From contig JABFRX010000034.1 of assembly GCA_013140995.1 (NCBI GenBank), positions 1 to 42,694 of the forward strand: 42,694 nucleotides of DNA, given 5' to 3'. The stretch comes from Alphaproteobacteria bacterium (GTDB taxonomy: Bacteria > Pseudomonadota > Alphaproteobacteria > Micropepsales > Micropepsaceae). Under the pieces are notes generated by a model. The model ran no database searches. It was not told the DNA's origin and saw nothing but the letters and a program-made list of their open reading frames with translations. Below are positions 8,241 through 25,222 of this stretch, one piece after another. A program made the position numbers and the translations under genes. Position 1 is the first letter of the stretch, and each line of letters starts with the position of its first letter.

Positions 8241-9341
8241 ATGCTCACCAAAGCCGACGACTATCCCATTCATCAGACGCCGGAGCCGATCGCCTATGCG
8301 GGGACGGACCGTAACTTTTACGACCGCTATTTCTTCAACGGCTACGCGCGGGATGGCGAGACGTTTTTTGCGGTGGCGCTCGGCGTTTATCCGGCGTTGA
8401 ACGTGATGGACGGCGCGTTCTGCGTCGTGGTTGACGGCGTGCAGCACAATCTGCGGGTTTCGCGCGTTCTTGGCATGGAGCGGATGGATACGCGCGTTGG
8501 GCCGCTCTCCGTAGAAGTCGTGGAACCGCTGCATTCGTTGCGCGTGCGTGTTGCGAAGAACGATCACGGGATCACAGCCGACATCCTATTCCGCGCGCGG
8601 TCGGCGGCGATCGAGGAGCCGCGTTTCACGTATCGCGCGGGTCCGCGTACGGTGATGGACTACACGCGGCTCACGCAAAACGGCAGCTATGAGGGTTGGA
8701 TCGAGGTGAAGGGGCGGCGGATCGATGTCGCGCATCACATCGGCACGCGCGACCGGTCTTGGGGTATCCGGCCCGTTGGTGCGCAGGACTCGCAGCCGGT
8801 TGCGCCGCCGCGCGCGCCGCAATTCTATTGGCTGTGGGCGCCGATGAATTTCGAGGATCGGATCACGCTCTATCACAACAACGCTGACGGCGGGGGGAAG
8901 CCCTGGAACACACATGCGGTGATGGCGGCGACGGGCGACAGCGCGGCTACGCATATGGCGTCGTGTTGTTCGGACGTGGTGTTCAAGTCCGGCACGCGGC
9001 ATGCGAAGGCGGCGTCAATTTCGATGCGCGATACGGAGGGGCTCGACTACCGCATCGAGCTGAAGCCGAAGTGGAATTTCTACATGAGCGGGCTTGGCTA
9101 TACGCACCCCGAGTGGGGGCATGGACGGTTTCGCGGTGAACTTGCGGTCGGGTACGACACGCTCGAGACGGCAAAGGTGAACGAGAGCGAGTTTCACTAT
9201 TTGCATGTGCAGGCGTTCTCTGACGCGACGCTAACCGGCCCGAACGGGTTGGTGCGCAAGGGGCAGGGCGTGCTGGAGCAGCTCATCATCGGCGCGTATG
9301 GGCCGAACGGCTTCACCGGATTGTTGGACGGCGCGAAATGA
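8241..9341 (+). CDS. Lipocalin-like protein, CrtC/AttH-related
   Basis: A 366-residue, beta-rich, apparently cytoplasmic protein without a signal peptide. The middle holds a GTRDRSWGIRP motif, typical of the two-lobed lipocalin-like proteins related to hydroxyneurosporene hydratase (CrtC) and AttH; many uncharacterised members sit beside an APH-like phosphotransferase gene, as here. A reaction cannot be assigned: the fold binds hydrophobic ligands such as carotenoids or acyl compounds. The four-base ATGA overlap with the phosphotransferase gene at 9338 indicates coupled translation and a joint role. The ribosome binding site is weak. Confidence 0.6.
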   Translation: MLTKADDYPIHQTPEPIAYAGTDRNFYDRYFFNGYARDGETFFAVALGVYPALNVMDGAFCVVVDGVQHNLRVSRVLGMERMDTRVGPLSVEVVEPLHSLRVRVAKNDHGITADILFRARSAAIEEPRFTYRAGPRTVMDYTRLTQNGSYEGWIEVKGRRIDVAHHIGTRDRSWGIRPVGAQDSQPVAPPRAPQFYWLWAPMNFEDRITLYHNNADGGGKPWNTHAVMAATGDSAATHMASCCSDVVFKSGTRHAKAASISMRDTEGLDYRIELKPKWNFYMSGLGYTHPEWGHGRFRGELAVGYDTLETAKVNESEFHYLHVQAFSDATLTGPNGLVRKGQGVLEQLIIGAYGPNGFTGLLDGAK

Positions 9342-10366
9342 TCACGAAAGAGCTTGAGGCGCGGATCGTTCGCTACCTCGCGCATCGCATGCCGGAGGCG
9401 GGGCGGGTTTCGGTGATTGCGCTGTCGCGCATTCATGGCGGGGCGAGTCGCGAGACGTTTCGCGTGCGCATCGATCAGGAGCGCGGGGGCGAGCGCGGCT
9501 TGATCTTCCGGCGCGATCCGGTCTCGACGTTGATTGAGACGGAGCGGGAGGTCGAGTTTGCGGCGTATCGCTCGTTCATGGGATCGGCGGTGCCGGTGCC
9601 GGGTGCCTTGTTCCTTGAGCGCGAGCTTGAATGGTTGGAGCGGCCGTTCTTCGTGATGGAGGAGATCGAGGGTTGCACGGCCGGATCGATCTTGGCGGCC
9701 GATCCTTATGGGTCGCACCGTCGGAAGATCGGCGAGCAGTTCTTCACGATCTTGGGCGCCATCGCGAAGCGCGATGCGGCGACGTCCGATCTCGCGAGAC
9801 ATGTGCCGGTCGTGAAGCCGGATGATGCTTGGAAAGTCGAACTCGCCAAGTGGGAGAAGGTCATCGACGAGGACGAGCTTGAACCTCAGCCGATCTTACG
9901 TGCGGCGATCCGCTGGATGCGGCGCAATCCGCCGCCCGCGGCGCAGAAGATTTCCGTCGTGCACGGCGACTATCGGACGGGCAACTTCCTGTTCGATGGA
10001 ACGGGCACGATTCGTGCGGTGTTGGACTGGGAGATGGCGCATCTGGGCGATCCGCTCGAAGACCTTTGCTGGGCGCTCGATCCGCTGTGGTCGACTGACC
10101 GCGCGCATCCGGGCGGGATGCTGGCGCCGGAAGAGGCGATCAAGGTGTGGGAGAAAGCGAGCGGGCTGAAGGCCGACCGACAAGCTCTTGCTTGGTGGAC
10201 GATGTTCGCGTCGTTCAAGGGGGCGGCGATTTGGATTTCGTCGGCGAAGGAGTTTCAAGCGGCGAAGAACACCGATCCGGTGATGGCGTTCTCGGGCCTC
10301 TATTGCCTGCCGTTCCACAACAAGCGGCTGGCGGACATGCTGCTTGAAGCGCGCGAGGCTGCCTGA
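9338..10366 (+). CDS. APH-fold phosphotransferase family protein
   Basis: A 342-residue kinase-like protein of the aminoglycoside phosphotransferase superfamily, closest in layout to the ACAD10/ACAD11 N-terminal kinase group. The N-terminal lobe has GGASRETFRV and ends in FFVMEEIEG; the catalytic loop is VHGDYRTGNFL (Brenner-type HGDxxxGN), and the metal-binding loop is VLDWEMAHLGDP. Members near lipid and steroid catabolism genes are thought to phosphorylate a hydroxyl group before elimination; antibiotic resistance is not implied. It overlaps its neighbours on both sides (ATGA at 9338, TGATG at 10364-10368), so the three genes 8241-10800 form a tight unit. Confidence 0.85.
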   Translation: MITKELEARIVRYLAHRMPEAGRVSVIALSRIHGGASRETFRVRIDQERGGERGLIFRRDPVSTLIETEREVEFAAYRSFMGSAVPVPGALFLERELEWLERPFFVMEEIEGCTAGSILAADPYGSHRRKIGEQFFTILGAIAKRDAATSDLARHVPVVKPDDAWKVELAKWEKVIDEDELEPQPILRAAIRWMRRNPPPAAQKISVVHGDYRTGNFLFDGTGTIRAVLDWEMAHLGDPLEDLCWALDPLWSTDRAHPGGMLAPEEAIKVWEKASGLKADRQALAWWTMFASFKGAAIWISSAKEFQAAKNTDPVMAFSGLYCLPFHNKRLADMLLEAREAA

Positions 10367-10800
10367 TGAAACCCTCACCCGAACTCGTTTTGAATCAGGC
10401 GTTCGCGAAGATCGCGATGGAGATGGCGCCCGCGTTGCCGCCCGGCTATGGCCAAGGCTCGGCAACGACTATGGCGGTATTGCTGTTGATGGTGGGCCAG
10501 GAGTTCGACCGCGCGGCGGAGGTCCGCGTCAAAGAGAACCGCGTGATGCGCGCGCTGTTCGGCGACGCCGCGAAGAATGTGAGCGGCGCGTTGGGTCAGA
10601 AGCTTAGTGCGGTCACCGGCGTGCGGGACGAGGACTTGACGGTGTCGGGCCTCGACCGCGTGAACGGTGAGTTAAAGGGACTGTTGATCGAGCTGCAGGT
10701 CCACGCGGAGCAGAAAGGGGATCGCGCTTTGGAGTTGCGCATCCTTCGGTTTTTGAGCGAAGCAGCTGCGGCGCGGCAGGTGCAACTGCCCGCGATGTAA
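10366..10800 (+). CDS. Small helical protein, possibly DUF6285-like
   Basis: A 144-residue, mainly helical protein. The pattern MAPALPPGYG followed by a helix QEFDRAAEVRVKEN and a C-terminal amphipathic helix echoes DUF6285 proteins, which are commonly encoded right after an APH-like phosphotransferase gene; I make the link from pattern and position, not from strong sequence identity. The function is unknown; a partner or regulatory subunit of the kinase is a reasonable idea. The ATG shares one base with the preceding TGA, and the MFS gene begins 2 bases after its stop. Confidence 0.65.
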   Translation: MKPSPELVLNQAFAKIAMEMAPALPPGYGQGSATTMAVLLLMVGQEFDRAAEVRVKENRVMRALFGDAAKNVSGALGQKLSAVTGVRDEDLTVSGLDRVNGELKGLLIELQVHAEQKGDRALELRILRFLSEAAAARQVQLPAM

Positions 10801-10802
10801 TC

Positions 10803-12008
10803 ATGCTCTCATCATTGTGGTCGCGGCTGCACCCGGACGCGGTGCGGTTTGTGCCGTTCTTTGTCGGGTTGAACTTCCTGAACAGCATTCACGTCGTGTT
10901 CTTCACGGTGTGGCTGGCGAGTGTCGGGTTTGATCCGCATGCGACGGGGCTTCTGCTCGCGGCCATGAATATGTTGCGCGTGTTCACCGGGCCGCTGCTT
11001 GGCGTTGCGGCGGATGCGTTTCATGCGCGGCGGCTGTTTCTCATCGGGCTGATGACGGTCGCAGGCGTTTGTTATGTGGGTTATGCGACGGTTGAGGGCA
11101 CCGTTGCCGTCGTTGTCTTTTCGTTGGTCGCGAGTGCCGCCTTCTCGGCGATCGGGGCGTTGATCGAGGGCGTCTCGATGTCGGCGGCGACGGCGCGCGG
11201 GTTTGATTATGGGCGCGTGCGGCTTACGGGGTCGGCCGCGTTCGTGGTGATGAACTTCGTGGGCGGGGCGGCGGTTGCGGCCTACGGGATCGATGCGTTC
11301 TTGCCGATCTTGATTGGGTCGGCTGCACTTGCGGCGTTGGCCGCGTTCGTGCTGCCGCGGGACGCGCAACCGGAGGTGCGCGCCGGCTTTCGCTCGACTG
11401 GGCGCGATGCGTGGCAGTTGACGCGGCAGCCGCTATTCGTGCTGATGATCGGTGCGACTGGCCTCGCGCAGGCGTCGCACACGTTCTACTACGGCTTCGG
11501 TACGCTGAACTGGCAGAAGATCGGGTACTCGGCCGATTTGATCGGCGGGTTGTGGGCGCTCGGCGTGGTCGCAGAGATCTTCGTCCTCATGTATTCCGGG
11601 CGTGTCGTGCAGCGGGTCGGGATAGTGAACCTGATGATGCTGGGTGCCGCGGCGGGGATCGTGCGTTGGACGCTGCTCGCGCTGTCGCCTGCGTTGTGGG
11701 TTGTGCTGTTGGCGCAGCTGCTGCATGCCGGTACGTTTTGCGCCGTGCATTTGGGGACGATGCATTTCATCCTGCGGGCAACGCCGGCGCACCTGGTCGG
11801 TACTGCGCAGACCCTCTATTTCGCGGTGTCGATCGGGGTTTTCTTTTCGATCGGGCAGTACGGGTCGGGGGCGCTGTTCGCGTCCGTGGGGAGCCTTGCC
11901 TACTTTCTGATGGTGGGATTTAGCGCTGTGGCGCTGGTCTTGTCGTACGTGCTCGGGCGTCTTTGGAACGGTGGCGTGCTGCTGGACGAGACGCGGCCAG
12001 TCGCCTAA
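10803..12008 (+). CDS. MFS transporter, phenylpropionate-permease-like
   Basis: A 401-residue integral membrane protein with about 12 hydrophobic helices. It follows the PPP/HcaT (MFS_1_like) branch: N-terminal RFVPFFVGLNFLNSIHVVFFTVWL, the loop MNMLRVFTGPLLGVAAD between helices 2 and 3, and GRVRLTGSAAFV in the first half. Known relatives carry 3-phenylpropionate or nucleosides by proton symport. Here it could bring in, or expel, the substrate or product of the surrounding enzymes. It starts 2 bases after the preceding stop, so it is co-transcribed with the phosphotransferase unit. Confidence 0.85.
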   Translation: MLSSLWSRLHPDAVRFVPFFVGLNFLNSIHVVFFTVWLASVGFDPHATGLLLAAMNMLRVFTGPLLGVAADAFHARRLFLIGLMTVAGVCYVGYATVEGTVAVVVFSLVASAAFSAIGALIEGVSMSAATARGFDYGRVRLTGSAAFVVMNFVGGAAVAAYGIDAFLPILIGSAALAALAAFVLPRDAQPEVRAGFRSTGRDAWQLTRQPLFVLMIGATGLAQASHTFYYGFGTLNWQKIGYSADLIGGLWALGVVAEIFVLMYSGRVVQRVGIVNLMMLGAAAGIVRWTLLALSPALWVVLLAQLLHAGTFCAVHLGTMHFILRATPAHLVGTAQTLYFAVSIGVFFSIGQYGSGALFASVGSLAYFLMVGFSAVALVLSYVLGRLWNGGVLLDETRPVA

Positions 12009-12040: not shown

Positions 12041-12583
12041 ATGGGCTACCATCATCTGGCGCTCGCCACGCGCGACATGAAGGCGATCGACCACTTCTAT
12101 CGCGAGGTTATGGGGTTTGATTTGAAGAAGGTCGAGGTTGGGCCGACGCCGGACGGCGGTTGGGCGAAGCACTTCTTCTATGAGATCGAGCCCGACCGTT
12201 TCATTGCGTTCTGGGAACTGCATGGGCCGAACTACGACAACAAGACGTTCGAGACGGGCTTGGCGAAGGCCGCTGGCCTGCCGCAATGGGTGAACCACAT
12301 CTCGTTCTATTCACCGACCGAGGCGCATCTGGCTGAGAAGCGGAACATGTGGCTCGGCGGCGGCTTCGATGTGATGGAGATCGACCACAATTGGTGCCGC
12401 TCGATCTACACGACCGATCCGAACGGGACGATGGTCGAGTATTGCGTGACGACGGGACAGTTCACGCAGGCCGATAAAGACGAGGCGCTGAATGCGCTGA
12501 CGTCGAACGACGTGAAGCCGTCGAAGCCGCCGAAGTCAATTCAGGTGCACAAGGCGAAAGACTTTCGCCGCGCCGCGGAATAG
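12041..12583 (+). CDS. VOC-family (glyoxalase/dioxygenase fold) protein
   Basis: A 180-residue protein of the vicinal-oxygen-chelate superfamily. The N-terminal module opens with YHHLALATRDMKAIDHFYREVMGF, the second module with WVNHISFYSPTEAHL, and an acidic ligand sits in NGTMVEYCVTT. The histidines and the glutamate provide a likely divalent metal site. The reaction could be a ring-cleaving dioxygenase, an isomerase or a lyase. The C-terminal 35 residues are a charged tail. The start at 12041 follows GGAGAG; earlier starts would run back into the MFS gene. Its neighbours are a transporter and an oxidoreductase, which supports a catabolic role. Confidence 0.83.
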   Translation: MGYHHLALATRDMKAIDHFYREVMGFDLKKVEVGPTPDGGWAKHFFYEIEPDRFIAFWELHGPNYDNKTFETGLAKAAGLPQWVNHISFYSPTEAHLAEKRNMWLGGGFDVMEIDHNWCRSIYTTDPNGTMVEYCVTTGQFTQADKDEALNALTSNDVKPSKPPKSIQVHKAKDFRRAAE

Positions 12584-13616: not shown

Positions 13617-14702
13617 CTATCCGCCGATGCGGCGGAAGCGGTAGGTGCTTATGCCGCTTGCCGCGTCGGCGGTTGCCATCTCGCGCAGCTTCGTGTGTTC
13701 GGGCGATAGAGCGCAGGCCGGGTCGGTGGTGGCGGCGTTGCCGGTGATGGCGAAGGCTTGGCAGCGGCAACCGCCCCAGTCGATTTCGGCGCGGTCGCAA
13801 CCTTGGCAGGGTTTGGGCATCCAGGCGGTGCCGCGGAATTTTTGGAACGCTTCGCTGGTCTCCCAGATTTCGGCGAGTGAGCGGTCTTTGACGTTGTCGA
13901 ATGCGAAGCCGGGGAGGGTAGCTGCGGCGTGGCAGGGGAGCGCGCGGCCGTCGGGCGTCACCACGATGACCTGCCGGCCCCAACCGCCCATGCAGGCTTT
14001 TGGGCGTTCGGCGTAGTAGTCCGGGATCACGTGGTCGATCACGAGCGTGCCTTCGAGCGATTTGCGCGCGTCTTCGACAAGCTTCGCGGCGGTGAGGAAA
14101 TCTTCGCGCGCAGGCATCAGGCTTGCGCGGTTTGCGATCGCCCAACCGTGGTACTGCACGTGCGCGACTTCGAGGCGGCCTGCGCCCCACTCGACGGCGA
14201 GGTCGATGATTGCGGGGAGGTCCTTGATGTTGCCGCGGTGGATGACGGCGTTGATCGTGAGCGCCAGACCCTCTTCGACGACCACTCTTGCTGCTTCCCG
14301 TTTTGCCTTCGCGCCGCCTTTGAAATGCGCTATAGCGTCGGCGCGCGTGGGGTCGACGCCTTGGATCGAGATCTGCACGTGATCGAGCCCGGCGGCGCGC
14401 AGTTCGGTCAGGCTCTGCGCGTTCAGCCCGACGCCCGAAGTGATCAGGTTCGTGTAGAGACCGGCAAGGTGCGCGGCGTTCGTCAGTTCGGCGATGTCTT
14501 TGCGTACGAGCGGCTCGCCGCCCGAGAGGTGCACGTGCATGGCGCCCAAGGAAGCCGCATCTTCGAAGACGCGCGTCCATGTTTTGGTGTCGAGTTCTTG
14601 GTTGGCGCGGGTGAGTTCGAGCGGGTTCGAGCAGTAGGGGCAACCGAGCGGGCAGCGGTGGGTTAGTTCGGCGAGCAGGCCGATCGGTGTCAACTCGGTC
14701 AC
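13617..14702 (-). CDS. pqqE: PqqA peptide cyclase PqqE (radical SAM)
   Basis: A 361-residue radical SAM enzyme that joins the glutamate and tyrosine side chains of PqqA, the first step of pyrroloquinoline quinone formation. The SAM cluster motif is CPLGCPYC at about residues 18-25, followed by LSGGEPL. The C-terminal SPASM-type region carries further cysteines (CMGGWG, LPCHAA, CQGCDRAEIDWGGCRC) for auxiliary iron-sulfur clusters. Length is normal for PqqE. Its ATG overlaps the pqqD stop by four bases. It is the last gene of the leftward pqq operon and abuts the convergent oxidoreductase gene. Confidence 0.96.
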   Translation of the reverse strand: MTELTPIGLLAELTHRCPLGCPYCSNPLELTRANQELDTKTWTRVFEDAASLGAMHVHLSGGEPLVRKDIAELTNAAHLAGLYTNLITSGVGLNAQSLTELRAAGLDHVQISIQGVDPTRADAIAHFKGGAKAKREAARVVVEEGLALTINAVIHRGNIKDLPAIIDLAVEWGAGRLEVAHVQYHGWAIANRASLMPAREDFLTAAKLVEDARKSLEGTLVIDHVIPDYYAERPKACMGGWGRQVIVVTPDGRALPCHAAATLPGFAFDNVKDRSLAEIWETSEAFQKFRGTAWMPKPCQGCDRAEIDWGGCRCQAFAITGNAATTDPACALSPEHTKLREMATADAASGISTYRFRRIGG

Positions 14703-14962
14703 GGCTTCACGTAGCCCTTTTGCGTGAGGTCTTTGAGTAGATTTTCGATGTCGGTGCGGATGTCATCGGCGTTCGCGTCGTATTCCTTAGCGAGCGCGGC
14801 CGCGATTTCCGAGACCCGCCTTTTGCCGTCGAATTCGGCGACGATGGCTTGTGCGATGTCGTCGAGTTCGAGGATGCGTTCAGGACCGAGCAGGACGGTG
14901 CCGCGTTTGGCGTCTTTGCGCAGCTTCACGCCGGGCGCGAGTTTGGGGGCGGGGTCCGTCAT
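14699..14962 (-). CDS. pqqD: PqqA-binding chaperone PqqD
   Basis: An 87-residue protein of the PqqD/RRE fold. It holds PqqA and presents it to PqqE. The family pattern is visible: VKLRKDAKRGTVLLGPER, then LDDIAQAIVAEFDG and a C-terminal helix pair ending in LTQKGYV. The start at 14962 (MTDPAPKL) overlaps the pqqC stop as ATGA, so translation is coupled; the longer reading frame upstream lies inside pqqC. PqqD is a separate protein here, not fused to PqqC or PqqE as in some species. Confidence 0.95.
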   Translation of the reverse strand: MTDPAPKLAPGVKLRKDAKRGTVLLGPERILELDDIAQAIVAEFDGKRRVSEIAAALAKEYDANADDIRTDIENLLKDLTQKGYVKP

Positions 14963-15681
14963 GGTTTGAACGCGCCGGGTGGGATCAGACCCGGCGTCAC
15001 GTAGGCGAAGTGGAGCGCGTCGAGCATCGCCCAGAGGACGTTGCATTTGAACGTGAGCGCGTCGAGGCAGAGTTGCTGTTCTTTGCGGGTGCGGGCGTGT
15101 TCGATGCAGTAGCGCAGCGCAAAGTCGGCGTCGCGCGGGGCTTGCGTCATGCGCTTGCCGAAATAGGCGAGCGTTTCCTTGGTGACGAAGTCGTAGCCGC
15201 CGAGCATGCCCTCAACGCGTTCGGCGATGATCGTGGGCGCGAACAGTTCGGTGAGCGACGAGGCGACGGCTTCGAGCACGCTTCTGTTCTGCACGAAATG
15301 GACGTAGGCGTCGGCGGCGAAGATGGTCGCGGGTAGTGCCGCTTGTTCCGAGGTTACCATCGCGCCGTCGAGGCCGAGACCGCCGGTCAGTTTCAGCCAG
15401 CGGGCAATGCCGCCGTCGCTGCCGTCGGTGCCGTCGTGGTCTTCGATGCGCACGCGCCAGGTTGCGCGCAGTTCCGGCGTGGGAAGGCGCGAGACGATGA
15501 TCGCGTCTTTGATCGGGATGCGCGATTGGTAGATGTAGCGATTCAGCGCCCAGGCTTGCACTTGGCCCTTGTTCAGTTTGCCGTCGTGAAGGAGGCGGTG
15601 GAACGCGTGGCGGTTGTGGTAACGCTCGGCGCCGATCGCGCGGAGGCGCCCTTCGAACTCATTGGCGGAGAGCAGGGTCAC
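14959..15681 (-). CDS. pqqC: Pyrroloquinoline-quinone synthase PqqC
   Basis: A 240-residue helical oxidase that performs the last ring closure and eight-electron oxidation to PQQ without metal or cofactor. Family segments are clear: RYHNRHAFHRLLHDG near residue 20, ALNRYIYQSRIPIKDA near 45, RIEDHDG near 78, and ALTFKCNVLWAMLDAL near the C-terminus. Length is typical. The start is GTG at 15681, overlapping the pqqB stop as GTGA with GAGGATCGAG upstream; this is the only start that gives the full N-terminus. Confidence 0.96.
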   Translation of the reverse strand: MTLLSANEFEGRLRAIGAERYHNRHAFHRLLHDGKLNKGQVQAWALNRYIYQSRIPIKDAIIVSRLPTPELRATWRVRIEDHDGTDGSDGGIARWLKLTGGLGLDGAMVTSEQAALPATIFAADAYVHFVQNRSVLEAVASSLTELFAPTIIAERVEGMLGGYDFVTKETLAYFGKRMTQAPRDADFALRYCIEHARTRKEQQLCLDALTFKCNVLWAMLDALHFAYVTPGLIPPGAFKP

Positions 15682-16562
15682 AACTCGATCCTCATGCCGT
15701 CTTCGGCGACGCGCCAGCCAGCGGCTTCGACCGCCTTTCGTTCGGGCGACGCGCGGTTCAACACGGGGTTCGAGTTGTTGATGTGGATGAAGTAGCGGCG
15801 TTCCACTTTGATCCCGCGCAAGGCTTCGATCGCGTCCGTCATTGCGACGTGGCCCATGCGGCGGGCTGTCTTTTCCCCTTCGCCGGAGCGGATCATCTCA
15901 TCGTCCGTGTACATCGTACCATCGAAGAACAGGACGCCGGCGCCGTCAACCGCGCGCACGATGTCGGGCGTGATCTCGGCGCAGGACGGCAAGAAGAAGA
16001 GCGAGCTTCCGGTGGTGTCCTTCAGGTGCAGTCCGATTGAGGCGCCTGCTGCCGGGCCGATACCATCGGTGCGCTCGAGATAGAGCGGCGGCTTGCCGGG
16101 GGCGGGGAAGGGCGTGATGGTCAAACCTGCAAGCGGCGTGAAGGGACCGTCGATGGACTTGCGACCCACGAGTTCAGGGTCGAGTACGCTGAACAAGGGG
16201 TTTGCGGCTATCACCTTCGACACATACGGCGTCGCCCAGAGGTCGAGCGGTTGCCGCTCTCGCAACGTGAGCAGGCCGGTCAATGCATCGACGTCCGCGC
16301 CGGTCAGTGCGACCGCTTTGATCGGCGAGGAACGCAGTCCCGTTCGAGGGTGCAACTCGGGCGTCGCGATGATCTGCTGGCGGATGTCGGGTGAGGCGTT
16401 CAGCAGCAACCAATTTTCGCCATCGCTGGAGATGGCGAGGCTTGCTTGCGTTTGGCGGGGGCAGTTCGGGTCACCGGCGAAGCCGCGGGCATTGTTTTGG
16501 CTCGCCGCATTCCATTGCGGGAAGCCGCCGCCTGCGGCGGCGCCGAGCACGATGATTTTCAT
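15678..16562 (-). CDS. pqqB: PqqB, metallo-beta-lactamase-fold PQQ biosynthesis protein
   Basis: A 294-residue protein of the PqqB family (MBL fold). It opens with MKIIVLGAAAGGGFPQWN, contains CPRQTQASLAIS with the zinc-site cysteine region, LTGADVDALTGLL in place of the usual HxHxDH metal motif, and ends with HINNSNPVLN. PqqB is reported to hydroxylate the tyrosine-derived part of the PQQ precursor. The start at 16562 is the family start; an in-frame ATG 27 bases upstream has no family support. It follows pqqA after 31 bases. Confidence 0.95.
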   Translation of the reverse strand: MKIIVLGAAAGGGFPQWNAASQNNARGFAGDPNCPRQTQASLAISSDGENWLLLNASPDIRQQIIATPELHPRTGLRSSPIKAVALTGADVDALTGLLTLRERQPLDLWATPYVSKVIAANPLFSVLDPELVGRKSIDGPFTPLAGLTITPFPAPGKPPLYLERTDGIGPAAGASIGLHLKDTTGSSLFFLPSCAEITPDIVRAVDGAGVLFFDGTMYTDDEMIRSGEGEKTARRMGHVAMTDAIEALRGIKVERRYFIHINNSNPVLNRASPERKAVEAAGWRVAEDGMRIEL

Positions 16563-16593
16563 GGGGCGAAGGCGACCCTGGGCCGCCACGCAG

Positions 16594-21769: not shown

Positions 21770-22906
21770 ATGACTGGGGATGCTCAGGCTTGGCTTGACG
21801 TGTCCGAAGATGCGTCGTCCCTGATGCTGCGGCCCCAGGGCGACTGGGTCGTGCGTCATGCCGAGACAATCGACAAGGTGTTGGCCGCCGTTCACACCTA
21901 CGACCGGCGCCTCGCGACGTTCGATCTTTCCCATTTGAGTCGGCTCGATACTGCTGGCGCGTGGTTGATTTACCGGACCGGGCGGGGGCTCGAACGTGCT
22001 GGGGCGAAGGTGACCTACGCCGGGGCGACGGCGGCGCAATCGACGCTGCTAAACGCGGTGGCGAATAGCGACCGGCCACTTCCTCCCACACCGCATGTCG
22101 GGAACATTTTCACGAACCTTGTCGTGCGCATGGGACATGCGCTGTCCGACGGTGGCCGCACGGGGCGTGAGTTGGTTGCGTTCTTCGGCCTGGTGCTCGA
22201 GACGCTGGCGAAGACAGTTGCCAACCCTTTCCGCATGCGCGCGACCTCGACCGTCTATCACATGGAGCAGACGGGCCTGAACGCGGTTCCGATCGTGAGT
22301 TTGATCTCGTTCTTGATCGGCGCGGTGCTGGCCTATCAGGGTTCGGAACAATTGCGCCGGTTCGGCGGCGAAATCTTCACGGTCAATCTCGTTGCTGTGT
22401 CGTTCTTGCGCGAGGTCGGCATTCTTTTGACTGCGATTATCGTTGCGGGACGTTCGGGTAGCGCGTTTACGGCGCAGATCGGTTCTATGAAGCTGCGTGA
22501 AGAGATCGACGCGATGCGCACGCTCGGCCTCGATCCGATGGAAGTTCTGGTTCTGCCGCGCGTGATCGCTCTTTTGATCATGATGCCGATCTTGGGCTTC
22601 GTTTCGGCGATGATGGGTTTGTTGGGCGGTGGGCTTGTTGTTTGGATCGAGCTTGGCATGTCGCCCGCGATGTACATCGAGCGCGTGAAAGACGCTTTGG
22701 ACGTCTGGGACGCCAGCGTCGCCTTTATCAAGGCGCCGGTGTTCGGGCTTCTGATCGCGATGATCGGGTGTTTCGAAGGTTTGAAGGTCGAGGGTAGCGC
22801 AGAGTCGGTCGGGCAGCGGACCACGGCATCGGTCGTCGAGGGCATCTTTACGGTCATCGTCGTCGATGCGTTCTTCTCCATCATGTTCGTGAAGCTCGGC
22901 ATATGA
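21770..22906 (+). CDS. mlaE: MlaE-type lipid ABC permease with N-terminal STAS domain
   Basis: A 378-residue protein. Residues 1 to about 110 form a STAS-like domain (DLSHLSRLDTAGAWLIYRTG) comparable to MlaB; residues 120-378 form the MlaE permease, with VPIVSLISFLIGAVLAYQGSEQLRRFG, VSFLREVGILLTAIIVAGRSGSAFTAQIGSM, EEIDAMRTLGLDPMEVLVLPR and a C-terminal VVDAFFSIMF. It is the membrane part of the phospholipid transporter that keeps outer-membrane lipid asymmetry, or moves other hydrophobic substrates. Fusing MlaB to MlaE removes the need for a separate mlaB gene. It overlaps the ATPase gene by ATGA. The ribosome binding site is weak. Confidence 0.93.
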   Translation: MTGDAQAWLDVSEDASSLMLRPQGDWVVRHAETIDKVLAAVHTYDRRLATFDLSHLSRLDTAGAWLIYRTGRGLERAGAKVTYAGATAAQSTLLNAVANSDRPLPPTPHVGNIFTNLVVRMGHALSDGGRTGRELVAFFGLVLETLAKTVANPFRMRATSTVYHMEQTGLNAVPIVSLISFLIGAVLAYQGSEQLRRFGGEIFTVNLVAVSFLREVGILLTAIIVAGRSGSAFTAQIGSMKLREEIDAMRTLGLDPMEVLVLPRVIALLIMMPILGFVSAMMGLLGGGLVVWIELGMSPAMYIERVKDALDVWDASVAFIKAPVFGLLIAMIGCFEGLKVEGSAESVGQRTTASVVEGIFTVIVVDAFFSIMFVKLGI

Positions 22907-23688
22907 CGCACGAGGCCATCATCTCCGTGCGCGACTTGCGCAACCAATTCGGGCCCCAGGTCGTCCACGATCATCTGGACCTTGATATCTATCGCGGTGA
23001 GGTGCTGGGCATCGTCGGCGGGTCGGGTACAGGTAAGTCGGTGCTGTTGCGCACAATTCTCGGCATCAACCGGTCGGCAGCGGGGCGGATCGAAATCTTC
23101 GGCAAGGTGCGGGGCGAGATGAGCCGCGCCGAGGAACAGTCGATCGAGCAGCGGTGGGGCGTGCTTTTTCAGGATGGTGCGCTTTTTTCGTCGCTCACCG
23201 TCGCGCAGAACATTCAGGTGGCGCTCAAAGAGCATCTGCGTATGCCGCAGAAGCTGATGGACGAGATTGCGGCGGTGAAGATTGGGCTCGTGGGCCTGCC
23301 GCCGGAGGCTGGGCCGAAATTTCCCTCGGAACTGTCGGGCGGTATGCGCAAGCGGGCCGGGTTGGCGCGGGCTTTGGCGCTGGACCCTGAGATCGTGTTT
23401 TTGGACGAACCGACCGCCGGCCTTGACCCCATCGGCGCGTCGGCTTTCGACGAATTGATCAAGAATCTTCAGGCAACGCTGGGTCTAACCGTCTTCATGG
23501 TGACGCATGACCTCGACAGCCTCTATGCGATCTGCGACCGGATTGCGGTGTTGGCCGAGAAAAAGGTGCTGGTTACCGGTACAATTCAGGAAATGATGGC
23601 CCAGGAACATCCCTGGATCCGTGAGTATTTTCATGGACCGCGCGGGCGGGCGGCGATGGCCGCTAAATCCGCGCCACCGCGGCCTTGA
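22903..23688 (+). CDS. mlaF: MlaF-type ABC transporter ATPase
   Basis: A 261-residue ATP-binding subunit. The Walker A motif is GGSGTGKS (about residues 43-50), the Q-loop is in LFQDGALFSSLT, the ABC signature is LSGGMRKRAGLARAL, Walker B and the catalytic glutamate are in IVFLDEPTAGLDP, and the switch histidine is in VTHDLDS. It drives the MlaE permease encoded just upstream. The C-terminal 25 residues are basic and alanine-rich. Its start overlaps the permease stop by four bases, and mlaD follows 17 bases later. Confidence 0.95.
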   Translation: MTHEAIISVRDLRNQFGPQVVHDHLDLDIYRGEVLGIVGGSGTGKSVLLRTILGINRSAAGRIEIFGKVRGEMSRAEEQSIEQRWGVLFQDGALFSSLTVAQNIQVALKEHLRMPQKLMDEIAAVKIGLVGLPPEAGPKFPSELSGGMRKRAGLARALALDPEIVFLDEPTAGLDPIGASAFDELIKNLQATLGLTVFMVTHDLDSLYAICDRIAVLAEKKVLVTGTIQEMMAQEHPWIREYFHGPRGRAAMAAKSAPPRP

Positions 23689-23705
23689 GGTAGGAGTTAT
23701 CGGCG

Positions 23706-24575
23706 ATGGAAACGCGCGCACACCACTTGCTCATCGGGAGTTTCGCGATCGGCATCACGCTGCTCACGATCTTGTTTCTGTTTTGGATCGGGCGGTTCGA
23801 GTTCGACCAGCAGTTTCAGATTTACGATTTGAAGTTCGAAGGCTCGGTATCGGGTCTGAGCAAAGCTGGCGATGTGCTCTACAACGGCATCAAGGTCGGC
23901 GAGGTCATCAAGATCGAGATCGACGAGGATAATCCGAATAACGTTCTCGTGCGCATTCAGGTCGGGCGTACGACGCCGGTGAAAGAGGATTCCTACGCGC
24001 GGCTTGAGACGCTGGGCTTGACGGGCGTCGCGGCCATTCAGATTGCCGGTGGCGGCCCGAAGTCGAACCCGCTGGTGGCGGAAGAGGGTCAACGCTATCC
24101 CGTTATCCAGACGAAGAGTTCGATCATCTCCGAATTGTTCACCAGCGCACCGCAGGTTGTCGATAAGGCCAATGTCGTTCTCGCTCGTGTTGCCACGTTC
24201 CTGAGCACCGACAATGAGCGGAAATTCAGCGAGACGATGGTGCATCTCGAGAAGTTGACGGCAAACATCGCCAAGGCGTCGGACAAGTTCGACTCGATTG
24301 CGACCAATCTCGACAAGATCGTGGCCGGCGATGCGAAGATGACGCTTGCCGATATTCGCGGCGTGGCGGGCGACATTCGCATGATCATGAATGAGGCGCG
24401 GGGCCCGCTGCGTGACTTCGCAAGGCAGGGTCTGCCAGAGCTGCTGCTCGCCATCGGCGATGCGCGGCAGATGATTGCGTCGATCGACCGGGCGGCACAG
24501 CGGCTTGAGAGCAGCCCGTCGTCGCTGATCTTCGGCGACAAGGCGGTCGAGTATAAGTCCGGGGGAGGGCGCTGA
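23706..24575 (+). CDS. mlaD: MlaD-type MCE-domain substrate-binding protein
   Basis: A 289-residue protein with one N-terminal membrane helix (IGSFAIGITLLTILFLFWIG) and a periplasmic MCE domain at about residues 38-120 (SGLSKAGDVLYNGIKVGEV...LETLGLTGVAAIQI). The rest is a helical tail with repeated heptad-like segments, which in homologues forms a hydrophobic channel above the hexameric MCE ring. It binds and passes lipids between the inner membrane and its partner. TAGGAG precedes the start; its TGA shares one base with the next ATG. Confidence 0.93.
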   Translation: METRAHHLLIGSFAIGITLLTILFLFWIGRFEFDQQFQIYDLKFEGSVSGLSKAGDVLYNGIKVGEVIKIEIDEDNPNNVLVRIQVGRTTPVKEDSYARLETLGLTGVAAIQIAGGGPKSNPLVAEEGQRYPVIQTKSSIISELFTSAPQVVDKANVVLARVATFLSTDNERKFSETMVHLEKLTANIAKASDKFDSIATNLDKIVAGDAKMTLADIRGVAGDIRMIMNEARGPLRDFARQGLPELLLAIGDARQMIASIDRAAQRLESSPSSLIFGDKAVEYKSGGGR

Positions 24576-25222
24576 TGCGCGGACGGTTGCGAATTCTTTT
24601 TGCCGCGGCTCTGACCGCGGTTCTCTTGTCGGCGTGCAGCCTGCCCGATTTCGGCAGCGGGCCGCCGCCTGACCTCTATGTGCTGTCGCCGAAGAGTACG
24701 TTTCCCGACGACTTGCCGTCGGTCGATTGGCAGCTTGTTGTCGAGGAACCCTCGACGGCGAAGGGTATCGACACCGACCGTATCGCGATTGCACCGACGT
24801 CGCTCGAGGTGAAGTACCTAGGAGGTTCGCGGTGGGCGGACCGGGCGCCGCGCATGTTGCAGCAGCTCTTGATCCAGTCGTTTGAGAACTCGAAGAAGAT
24901 CGTGTCCGTTGGGCGGCAGTCGATCGGGCTTCGGTCGGACTATGTGCTGAAAGTGGAACTGCGGGAGTTTCAGGCGGAGAAGACGGCGGACGGCGGCACC
25001 GTCGCGCACGTGCGGCTCAATCTGAAGCTCGTTCGCGTTTCACTGGGGCAGATCGTTGGGTCCGAGAGCTTCGATTTCTCCAAGCCGGCGAAGAGCGAGA
25101 GCGTGACCGATATCGTGCAGGCCTTCGACGACGCGGTCGGCGCCGTGTTGAAGCGCGCGGTCGCGTGGACGTTGAAAGCGGGCGAGGAGTCGAAAGACAA
25201 GAAGCCGCGCGATTGGAAGTAG
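24575..25222 (+). CDS. ABC-type transport auxiliary lipoprotein (PqiC-like)
   Basis: A 215-residue lipoprotein: basic start, hydrophobic helix and the lipobox LLSAC with cysteine 21. The mature part matches the ABC_trans_aux family (LYVLSPKS near the start, then DRIAIAP, WADRAPRMLQQLLIQSFENSKKI, DYVLKVELREFQAE and a final AFDDAVG helix). Such lipoproteins pair with MCE systems (PqiC with PqiAB) and probably link the MCE ring to the outer membrane. It is the last gene of the mla-like operon. Its stop lies four bases from the stop of the convergent coiled-coil gene. Confidence 0.88.
   Translation: MRGRLRILFAAALTAVLLSACSLPDFGSGPPPDLYVLSPKSTFPDDLPSVDWQLVVEEPSTAKGIDTDRIAIAPTSLEVKYLGGSRWADRAPRMLQQLLIQSFENSKKIVSVGRQSIGLRSDYVLKVELREFQAEKTADGGTVAHVRLNLKLVRVSLGQIVGSESFDFSKPAKSESVTDIVQAFDDAVGAVLKRAVAWTLKAGEESKDKKPRDWK

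Follow-up and report, generated by a model that had tools for sequence, protein, structure and literature searches.

We analysed 42,694 nucleotides of DNA from an alphaproteobacterium of the family Micropepsaceae (GenBank assembly GCA_013140995.1, contig JABFRX010000034.1), here called the window; the source genome comprises 4.04 Mb in 319 contigs and is 94% complete. At 8241–12008 the window carries a block of four genes, all on the forward strand, which is the subject of this report:

8241–9341, forward strand: 25-phosphosteroid-lyase-like protein (PSL) of the Rv3169 family, 366 aa; matches NF053593 and, in the PDB, 25-phosphosteroid lyase (25-PSL); motif GTRDRSWGIRPVG, with Asp171
9338–10366, forward strand: APH-type small-molecule kinase of the group termed class A here, 342 aa; matches PF01636; motif VHGDYRTGNFLF...LDWE
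10366–10800, forward strand: small all-helical protein (SML), 144 aa, placed in no family; described from its model and its linkage to the class A kinase
10803–12008, forward strand: MFS transporter (MFS_1_like), 401 aa; matches PF12832 and NF037955

The block and its spacings are exactly as described in an earlier note made from the sequence alone. An ATGA overlap at 9338–9341 joins the open reading frames of the lyase-like protein and the kinase, those of the kinase and the small protein share one base (10366), and two bases (10801–10802) separate the small protein from the MFS protein. The 'APH-like' and 'MFS' labels of that note were borne out by family matches: PF01636 for the kinase (108 bits), and PF12832 (159 bits) and NF037955 (182.8 bits; cut-off 100) for the transporter.

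The first protein is a member of the NCBIfam family Rv3169_fam (NF053593), scoring 392.1 bits against a curated cut-off of 150. It matched no Pfam family at E ≤ 0.001; among 58 members of the PSL family, 23 matched DUF7065 (best E 0.002) and 17 matched DUF7064 (best E 8e-9), mostly weakly. A phmmer search of the PDB at E values up to 1 returned only chains of 25-phosphosteroid lyase (9fzn/9g2i and 9g4c; E 2.7e-46), and 101 of 298 aligned residues (34%) are identical between the window protein and 9fzn. Within the aligned range 39 residues are invariant in 58 relatives, and 35 of these are kept in 25-phosphosteroid lyase. Asp171 of the window protein is invariant in 58/58 family members. It aligns with Asp176 of 9fzn (our own count), the aspartate of GSRDRSWG (GxRDRSWGxR), which is asparagine in 9g4c; we infer that the latter is a deliberate inactive variant. 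Because of the match to 25-phosphosteroid lyase and the conserved Asp motif, this protein, labelled AttH/CrtC-like in the earlier note, is more likely to be a second enzyme, a phosphate lyase, than a holder of ligand. A lyase 90% identical to that of the window was found in a metagenome-assembled genome of an uncultured alphaproteobacterium (L057), and a scan of viral contigs with PSL gave no match.

The second protein belongs to the APH fold: the catalytic H.D....N and DWE are present in the class A kinase, residues H209, D211, N216 and D230 are invariant in 16/16 sequences, and the fold was checked on a model of a relative, L050. In a profile search of the PDB the highest score went to 3dxp (85.7 bits), followed by ACAD11 (77.4), 9o56 (67.9), Rv3168 (55.2) and 9fsg (48.6), the last being 25-hydroxysteroid kinase (25-HSK) with its substrate. 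By sequence, then, the solved chain nearest to the window kinase is 3dxp and not 25-HSK. By fold, the L050 kinase model matched Rv3168 best (Z 30.2), then 25-HSK with 25-OH-steroid or product (29.3/28.9) and 3dxp (28.0), before a drop to 23.2 at the next row. The earlier note suggested that the kinase may phosphorylate a hydrophobic ligand at a hydroxyl, which is in keeping with these nearest characterised relatives.

Other lyase genes adjoin a different kinase, termed class B. Its profile gave weak matches to ACAD11, 3dxp and 25-HSK, and a single-sequence query of the PDB gave no match in one search and one weak match in another. A tree of 98 kinases, in which long branches were flagged by the tool, resolved class A, class B and the LvaA-like kinases as one group each; class A stood beside the LvaA-like group, and both lay away from class B.

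The third protein had been described as a small helical protein, and its predicted model agrees, being all-helical with five helices and a pLDDT of 95.1. A Foldseek search with this model gave no match at E ≤ 0.001, and the window SML had no Pfam match at E ≤ 10. Across 16 SML members, matches to ten Pfam families were seen, every family with a single member only (best E 0.02), and DUF6285 (PF19802), which we take to be the family of LvaB, was not matched at E ≤ 1. When the SML profile was run against 7,799 sequences, DUF6285 proteins filled the first ten places among non-members, the top one scoring 21.6 bits (E 7e-5). In the reverse search with the DUF6285 profile, a single SML stood out with 19.4 bits (E 4e-4), and a second followed at E 0.052, among non-members; the hhalign probabilities were 51% and 30%.

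The conservation survey proposed in the earlier note was run, and the genes stay together in other genomes, the order lyase–kinase–small protein recurring in other genera and families, which is more than chance would give. Two sets of genomes were used, one of 41 (the source genome and 40 relatives) and one of 142 drawn evenly from the class. Among the 41, the lyase exceeded its cut-off in 18 and SML was found in 17, all of them among those 18 (17/18 against 0/23 of the others). In the only lyase genome lacking SML, G027, the kinase beside the lyase is of class B (L055); in G023, lyase and SML are on separate contigs. Among the 142, the lyase exceeded its cut-off in 12 and SML was found in seven, in each case closely downstream of a lyase gene, so that SML occurs in 7/12 lyase genomes and 0/130 others (Fisher p 4e-9). 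Two of the five lyase genomes lacking it, G027 and G041, have a class B kinase.

At the level of single loci, we compiled 94 non-redundant PSL loci (the window, 17 stretches from related genomes and 80 further loci, minus four duplicates). The 80 are the best of 585 confirmed, so the sample favours PSLs like that of the window. Neighbours were counted by tblastn/HMM, since labels from greedy open reading frames miss genes. The kinase next to or near the lyase was of class A in 59 loci and of class B in 19, with neither in 16. Of the 59 class A loci, 56 also have SML, against none of the 35 loci without class A; the three exceptions are two contig ends (L088 and L097) and a locus with only a weak 14.9-bit match (L103). 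The class B kinase adjoins the lyase in its 19 loci, never with SML (for example L093:9080–10123, L070:9225–10358 and L134:9098–10147). That kinases from groups so distant in the tree are paired with one lyase family argues for a functional pair. The MFS gene was found near PSL in 22/94 loci. In eight Phenylobacterium-type loci the kinase and SML genes are divergent from the lyase gene, with the kinase ∼1.4 kb upstream and a P450 gene between:

L111, L119, L121, L124, L126, L129, L130, L131: divergent Phenylobacterium-type loci

We consider it probable that the block is an ATP-dependent dehydration module, in which a hindered alcohol is phosphorylated and the phosphate is then eliminated. The MFS protein (10803–12008) would take up the compound or a precursor. 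The kinase (9338–10366) would act on a hydrophobic compound of isoprenoid type and phosphorylate a hindered hydroxyl, likely a tertiary one, probably with SML (10366–10800) as its partner, as LvaB is for LvaA. PSL (8241–9341) would eliminate the phosphate to give an alkene, and the MDR reductase encoded downstream may act on this unsaturated product, possibly reducing it. The sequences themselves show to which families the proteins belong, which residues are conserved, and that the genes are linked and occur together; the two reactions, the partner role of SML, the substrate class and the roles of the MFS and MDR proteins are predicted from these.

Among the closest described systems is that of 25-HSK and 25-PSL (PDB 9fsg, 9ft5, 9fzn, 9g4c) in anaerobic sterol degradation, described for Sterolibacterium denitrificans, which has in common with the block the lyase family with its Asp motif and an APH-fold kinase; the same two-step logic of phosphorylation and elimination is proposed for both. 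According to the available text of PMC7411048, dehydration of 25-OH-CDO needs ATP and proceeds via 25-phospho-CDO, and the suggestion is made there that the reaction may extend to other isoprenoids, non-steroidal ones included, or to tertiary alcohols. The earlier note saw no match to a described pathway; this was wrong, because both a kinase for 25-OH-steroids and a lyase for 25-phosphosteroids have been described (PMC8449060, PMC11061730 and PMC7411048, in the parts available, and the PDB entries), the lyase being called putative in PMC11061730. A search of the literature on ATP-dependent dehydration of tertiary alcohols gave the sterol papers as the relevant ones among the matches listed. 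In a search covering few subscription journals, no paper was found on the lyase gene or on the kinase–SML–PSL module. The reaction type is already known; the kinase class, the partner protein and the operon are new. The window kinase differs from 25-HSK in coming from another subfamily and in having an extra small protein.

A second likeness is to LvaA–LvaB(–LvaC) of levulinate catabolism and to ACAD10/ACAD11, in which an APH-type kinase is likewise followed directly by a small protein and phosphorylation is followed by elimination of phosphate. As reported in PMC6692424 on the work of Rand et al. in P. putida, in the text available, a pulldown recovered LvaB (12 kDa) together with LvaA, and growth on levulinate requires lvaB. 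By analogy, we propose that SML is an LvaB-like partner of the class A kinase, sitting where LvaB sits beside LvaA. The differences are that SML, unlike LvaB, has no DUF6285 match in Pfam, and that the eliminating enzyme proposed in the window is PSL and not an ACAD such as LvaC. No ACAD was found among the neighbours scanned on either side of the window kinase. A levulinate operon was rejected, there being neither an ACAD beside the block nor a DUF6285 match.

The window genome has a separate pair of an LvaA-like kinase and a DUF6285 protein, with a four-base overlap, on contig C291 (L030:1017–2455, L177). In 20 DUF6285 stretches from the genomes surveyed, an LvaA-like kinase directly adjoined in 17 and lay within 1.7 kb in two (L174 and L181); the remaining stretch (L183) ended at the DUF6285 gene. 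Two mixed loci link the lyase and LvaA/DUF6285 systems. In a Desulfobacteraceae locus (L074:691–3281) the lyase gene faces a DUF6285 gene and a kinase of the LvaA group, a third kinase pairing, and in G032 a distant lyase relative directly precedes an LvaA-like kinase and DUF6285.

The third comparison is with the Rv3168–Rv3169 operon of Mycobacterium tuberculosis, which is under Rv3167c (PMC5340868, in the text available; PDB 3ats). Here a kinase-fold gene adjoins, in one operon, the gene that gives the PSL family its name, and Rv3168 is the top fold match given above. Unlike the window block, this operon comes with no mention of a small protein in the available text of PMC5340868, and by sequence the window kinase is nearer to other solved chains than to Rv3168.

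Several points weigh against an ATP-dependent dehydration module. The reactions of both the kinase and PSL are predicted from their relatives. 25-HSK, as characterised, acts by itself as a monomer, from which the constant small neighbour of the window kinase suggests a difference. Its gene has no candidate lyase in the vicinity, whereas the window genes are adjacent and overlapping (both points on 25-HSK from the available text of PMC8449060). Neither class of kinase was found nearby in 16/94 PSL loci, some of which are cut contigs (for example L122 and L123) and one of which, L074, has a kinase of the LvaA type, nor near the lyase in three of the 12 class-wide lyase genomes (G139, G146 and G114, the lyase of the last lying at a contig start). 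The similarity between SML and DUF6285 is weak, at the edge of detection, and makes homology only suggestive. Fusions of kinase and SML in a single frame, in L050 (495 aa) and L095 (465 aa), count in favour of the module, yet both come from draft assemblies, in which such a frame can stem from a sequencing error. In the L050 fusion model the kinase part is confident, and after residue 340 the block pLDDT falls to 38–64, so that the model is uninformative on the interface; this low confidence may result from the alignment quality of the SML rows. As for sterol markers, the S25DH-type molybdenum hydroxylase (TIGR03479) exceeded its cut-off in 0/41 genomes, the best stretch in the source genome scoring 193.9 against 984.75 bits, and HsaD reached its cut-off in 0/41, the source genome included. 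Because both are below cut-off in the source genome, a sterol broken down in the anaerobic way is an improbable substrate. HsaD-like proteins at 278–312 bits, below the cut-off of 400, were seen in G013, G014 and G023, where steroid ring breakdown is possible. Lastly, because the window kinase is nearer in sequence to LvaA/ACAD11 than to 25-HSK, its substrate may be an acyl-CoA.

This last point leads to the alternative that survives best, although we regard it as unlikely: the kinase would act like LvaA/ACAD11 on a 4-hydroxy- or other hydroxyacyl-CoA, with PSL in the eliminating place of LvaC. The logic of the module would be unchanged, with a CoA thioester as the substrate. This alternative is consistent with the profile scores, which are highest for 3dxp and ACAD11, with the place of the kinase in the tree, beside the LvaA-like kinases accompanied by DUF6285 and apart from class B, and with the presence of a small partner, as for LvaA. 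It also agrees with two Sphingomonadaceae loci (L118 and L135) that have ECH and SDR genes and, judged by eye, an AMP-forming ligase-like gene. Set against these, the known relative of PSL is an enzyme for a phosphosteroid that is not a CoA ester, and elimination is assigned to LvaC or the ACAD domains in the available text of PMC11342911 and PMC12440821. Moreover, a scan of the window genes from about 4.6 kb onwards, stopping short of the far end, gave neither an ACAD nor a CoA ligase.

Much less probable is that the AttH/CrtC-like protein is a non-catalytic carrier holding a hydrophobic ligand for the kinase, as the earlier note supposed. AttH/CrtC proteins are lipocalin-like and every partner is compatible with a hydrophobic ligand, but PSL matches a protein deposited as a lyase, its polar motif with Asp171 is strictly conserved, and some of the loci that carry it have no kinase that could be found. 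The least probable alternative, a resistance unit with a detoxifying antibiotic- or xenobiotic-type phosphotransferase and an MFS efflux pump, would suit the APH family, the MFS protein and the VOC-fold neighbour, but an antibiotic-resistance kinase was rejected as the resistance models listed scored far below their cut-offs (best 25.6 against 205 bits), the constant partner is a lyase homologue and not a resistance gene, and the nearest named model of the MFS protein is the 3-phenylpropionate transporter HcaT (PRK11128; 192.6 bits, below the cut-off of 259).

Returning to the dehydration module, the relatives' P450 genes suggest an aerobic setting, unlike that of the 25-HSK/25-PSL system. A P450 with at least 40% identity over more than 400 residues to that of L121 lies near the lyase in 13/94 loci, a count that includes L121 itself and is dominated by one group, nine of the 13 being Phenylobacterium-type loci (eight so named and L124). 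The L121 P450 is CYP108-like and closest to P450terp (E 1.4e-141). In L067 and L091 the P450 precedes a lyase–kinase–small protein–MFS block, and distant lyase relatives adjoin CYP108-like or related P450 genes in L199:7929–10421, L200:7639–10705 and L201:7388–9666, with no kinase found nearby. In the window genome there are related P450s elsewhere, one of them cut by a contig start (C69), and none beside the block. The presence of CYP108-like P450s near the lyase suggests an aerobic route of hydroxylation, phosphorylation and elimination.

More tentatively, such loci might represent an aerobic and widespread version of the anaerobic sterol route, used on non-sterol isoprenoids, in which a P450 would hydroxylate a tertiary carbon, a two-subunit kinase (APH and SML, the latter a new partner family) would add the phosphate and PSL would eliminate it. 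ATP-dependent dehydration of tertiary alcohols via a phosphoester has so far been described for one anaerobic sterol degrader in the papers cited, as far as their available text goes. Conservation of the operon across many alphaproteobacteria would give this reaction a broader place in catabolism and would add a partner protein without a name in any family searched. If the reading holds, the same logic would make Rv3168–Rv3169 a kinase–lyase pair, and not an aminoglycoside phosphotransferase, as Rv3168 is labelled, with an unrelated neighbour, and so give the pair a direct, testable function.

Two further genes follow the block:

12041–12583, forward strand: VOC (glyoxalase-fold) protein; matches PF00903
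12602–13615, forward strand: zinc-type MDR reductase/dehydrogenase; matches PF00107/PF08240

The earlier note held that these could complete the pathway. For the VOC gene this was not upheld: it lies near PSL in only 6/94 loci, all in the genus of the window, and was rejected as a core part. The MDR gene may belong, as it recurs in 13/94 loci on the same strand, with at least 57% identity and within 5 kb of PSL. Upstream alpha/beta hydrolase and M61-like genes are near PSL in only three and five of the 94 loci, respectively, and are not core.

Further along the window, 13617–16589 on the opposite strand encodes a radical-SAM/SPASM protein together with genes that resemble a pqqE-D-C-B set by eye; L042, L043, L050 and L053 have a homologue of the radical-SAM/SPASM protein in the neighbourhood of the lyase. 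At 21770–25222 there are MlaE/ABC/MlaD/ABC_trans_aux lipid-transport genes, and three Henriciella loci (L100, L120 and L125) have homologues of the MlaE, ABC and MlaD genes close to the lyase. In eight loci (L042, L045, L046, L047, L048, L050, L065 and L069), the opposite strand upstream of the block repeatedly carries an alpha/beta hydrolase gene together with one for an FAD-dependent oxidoreductase.

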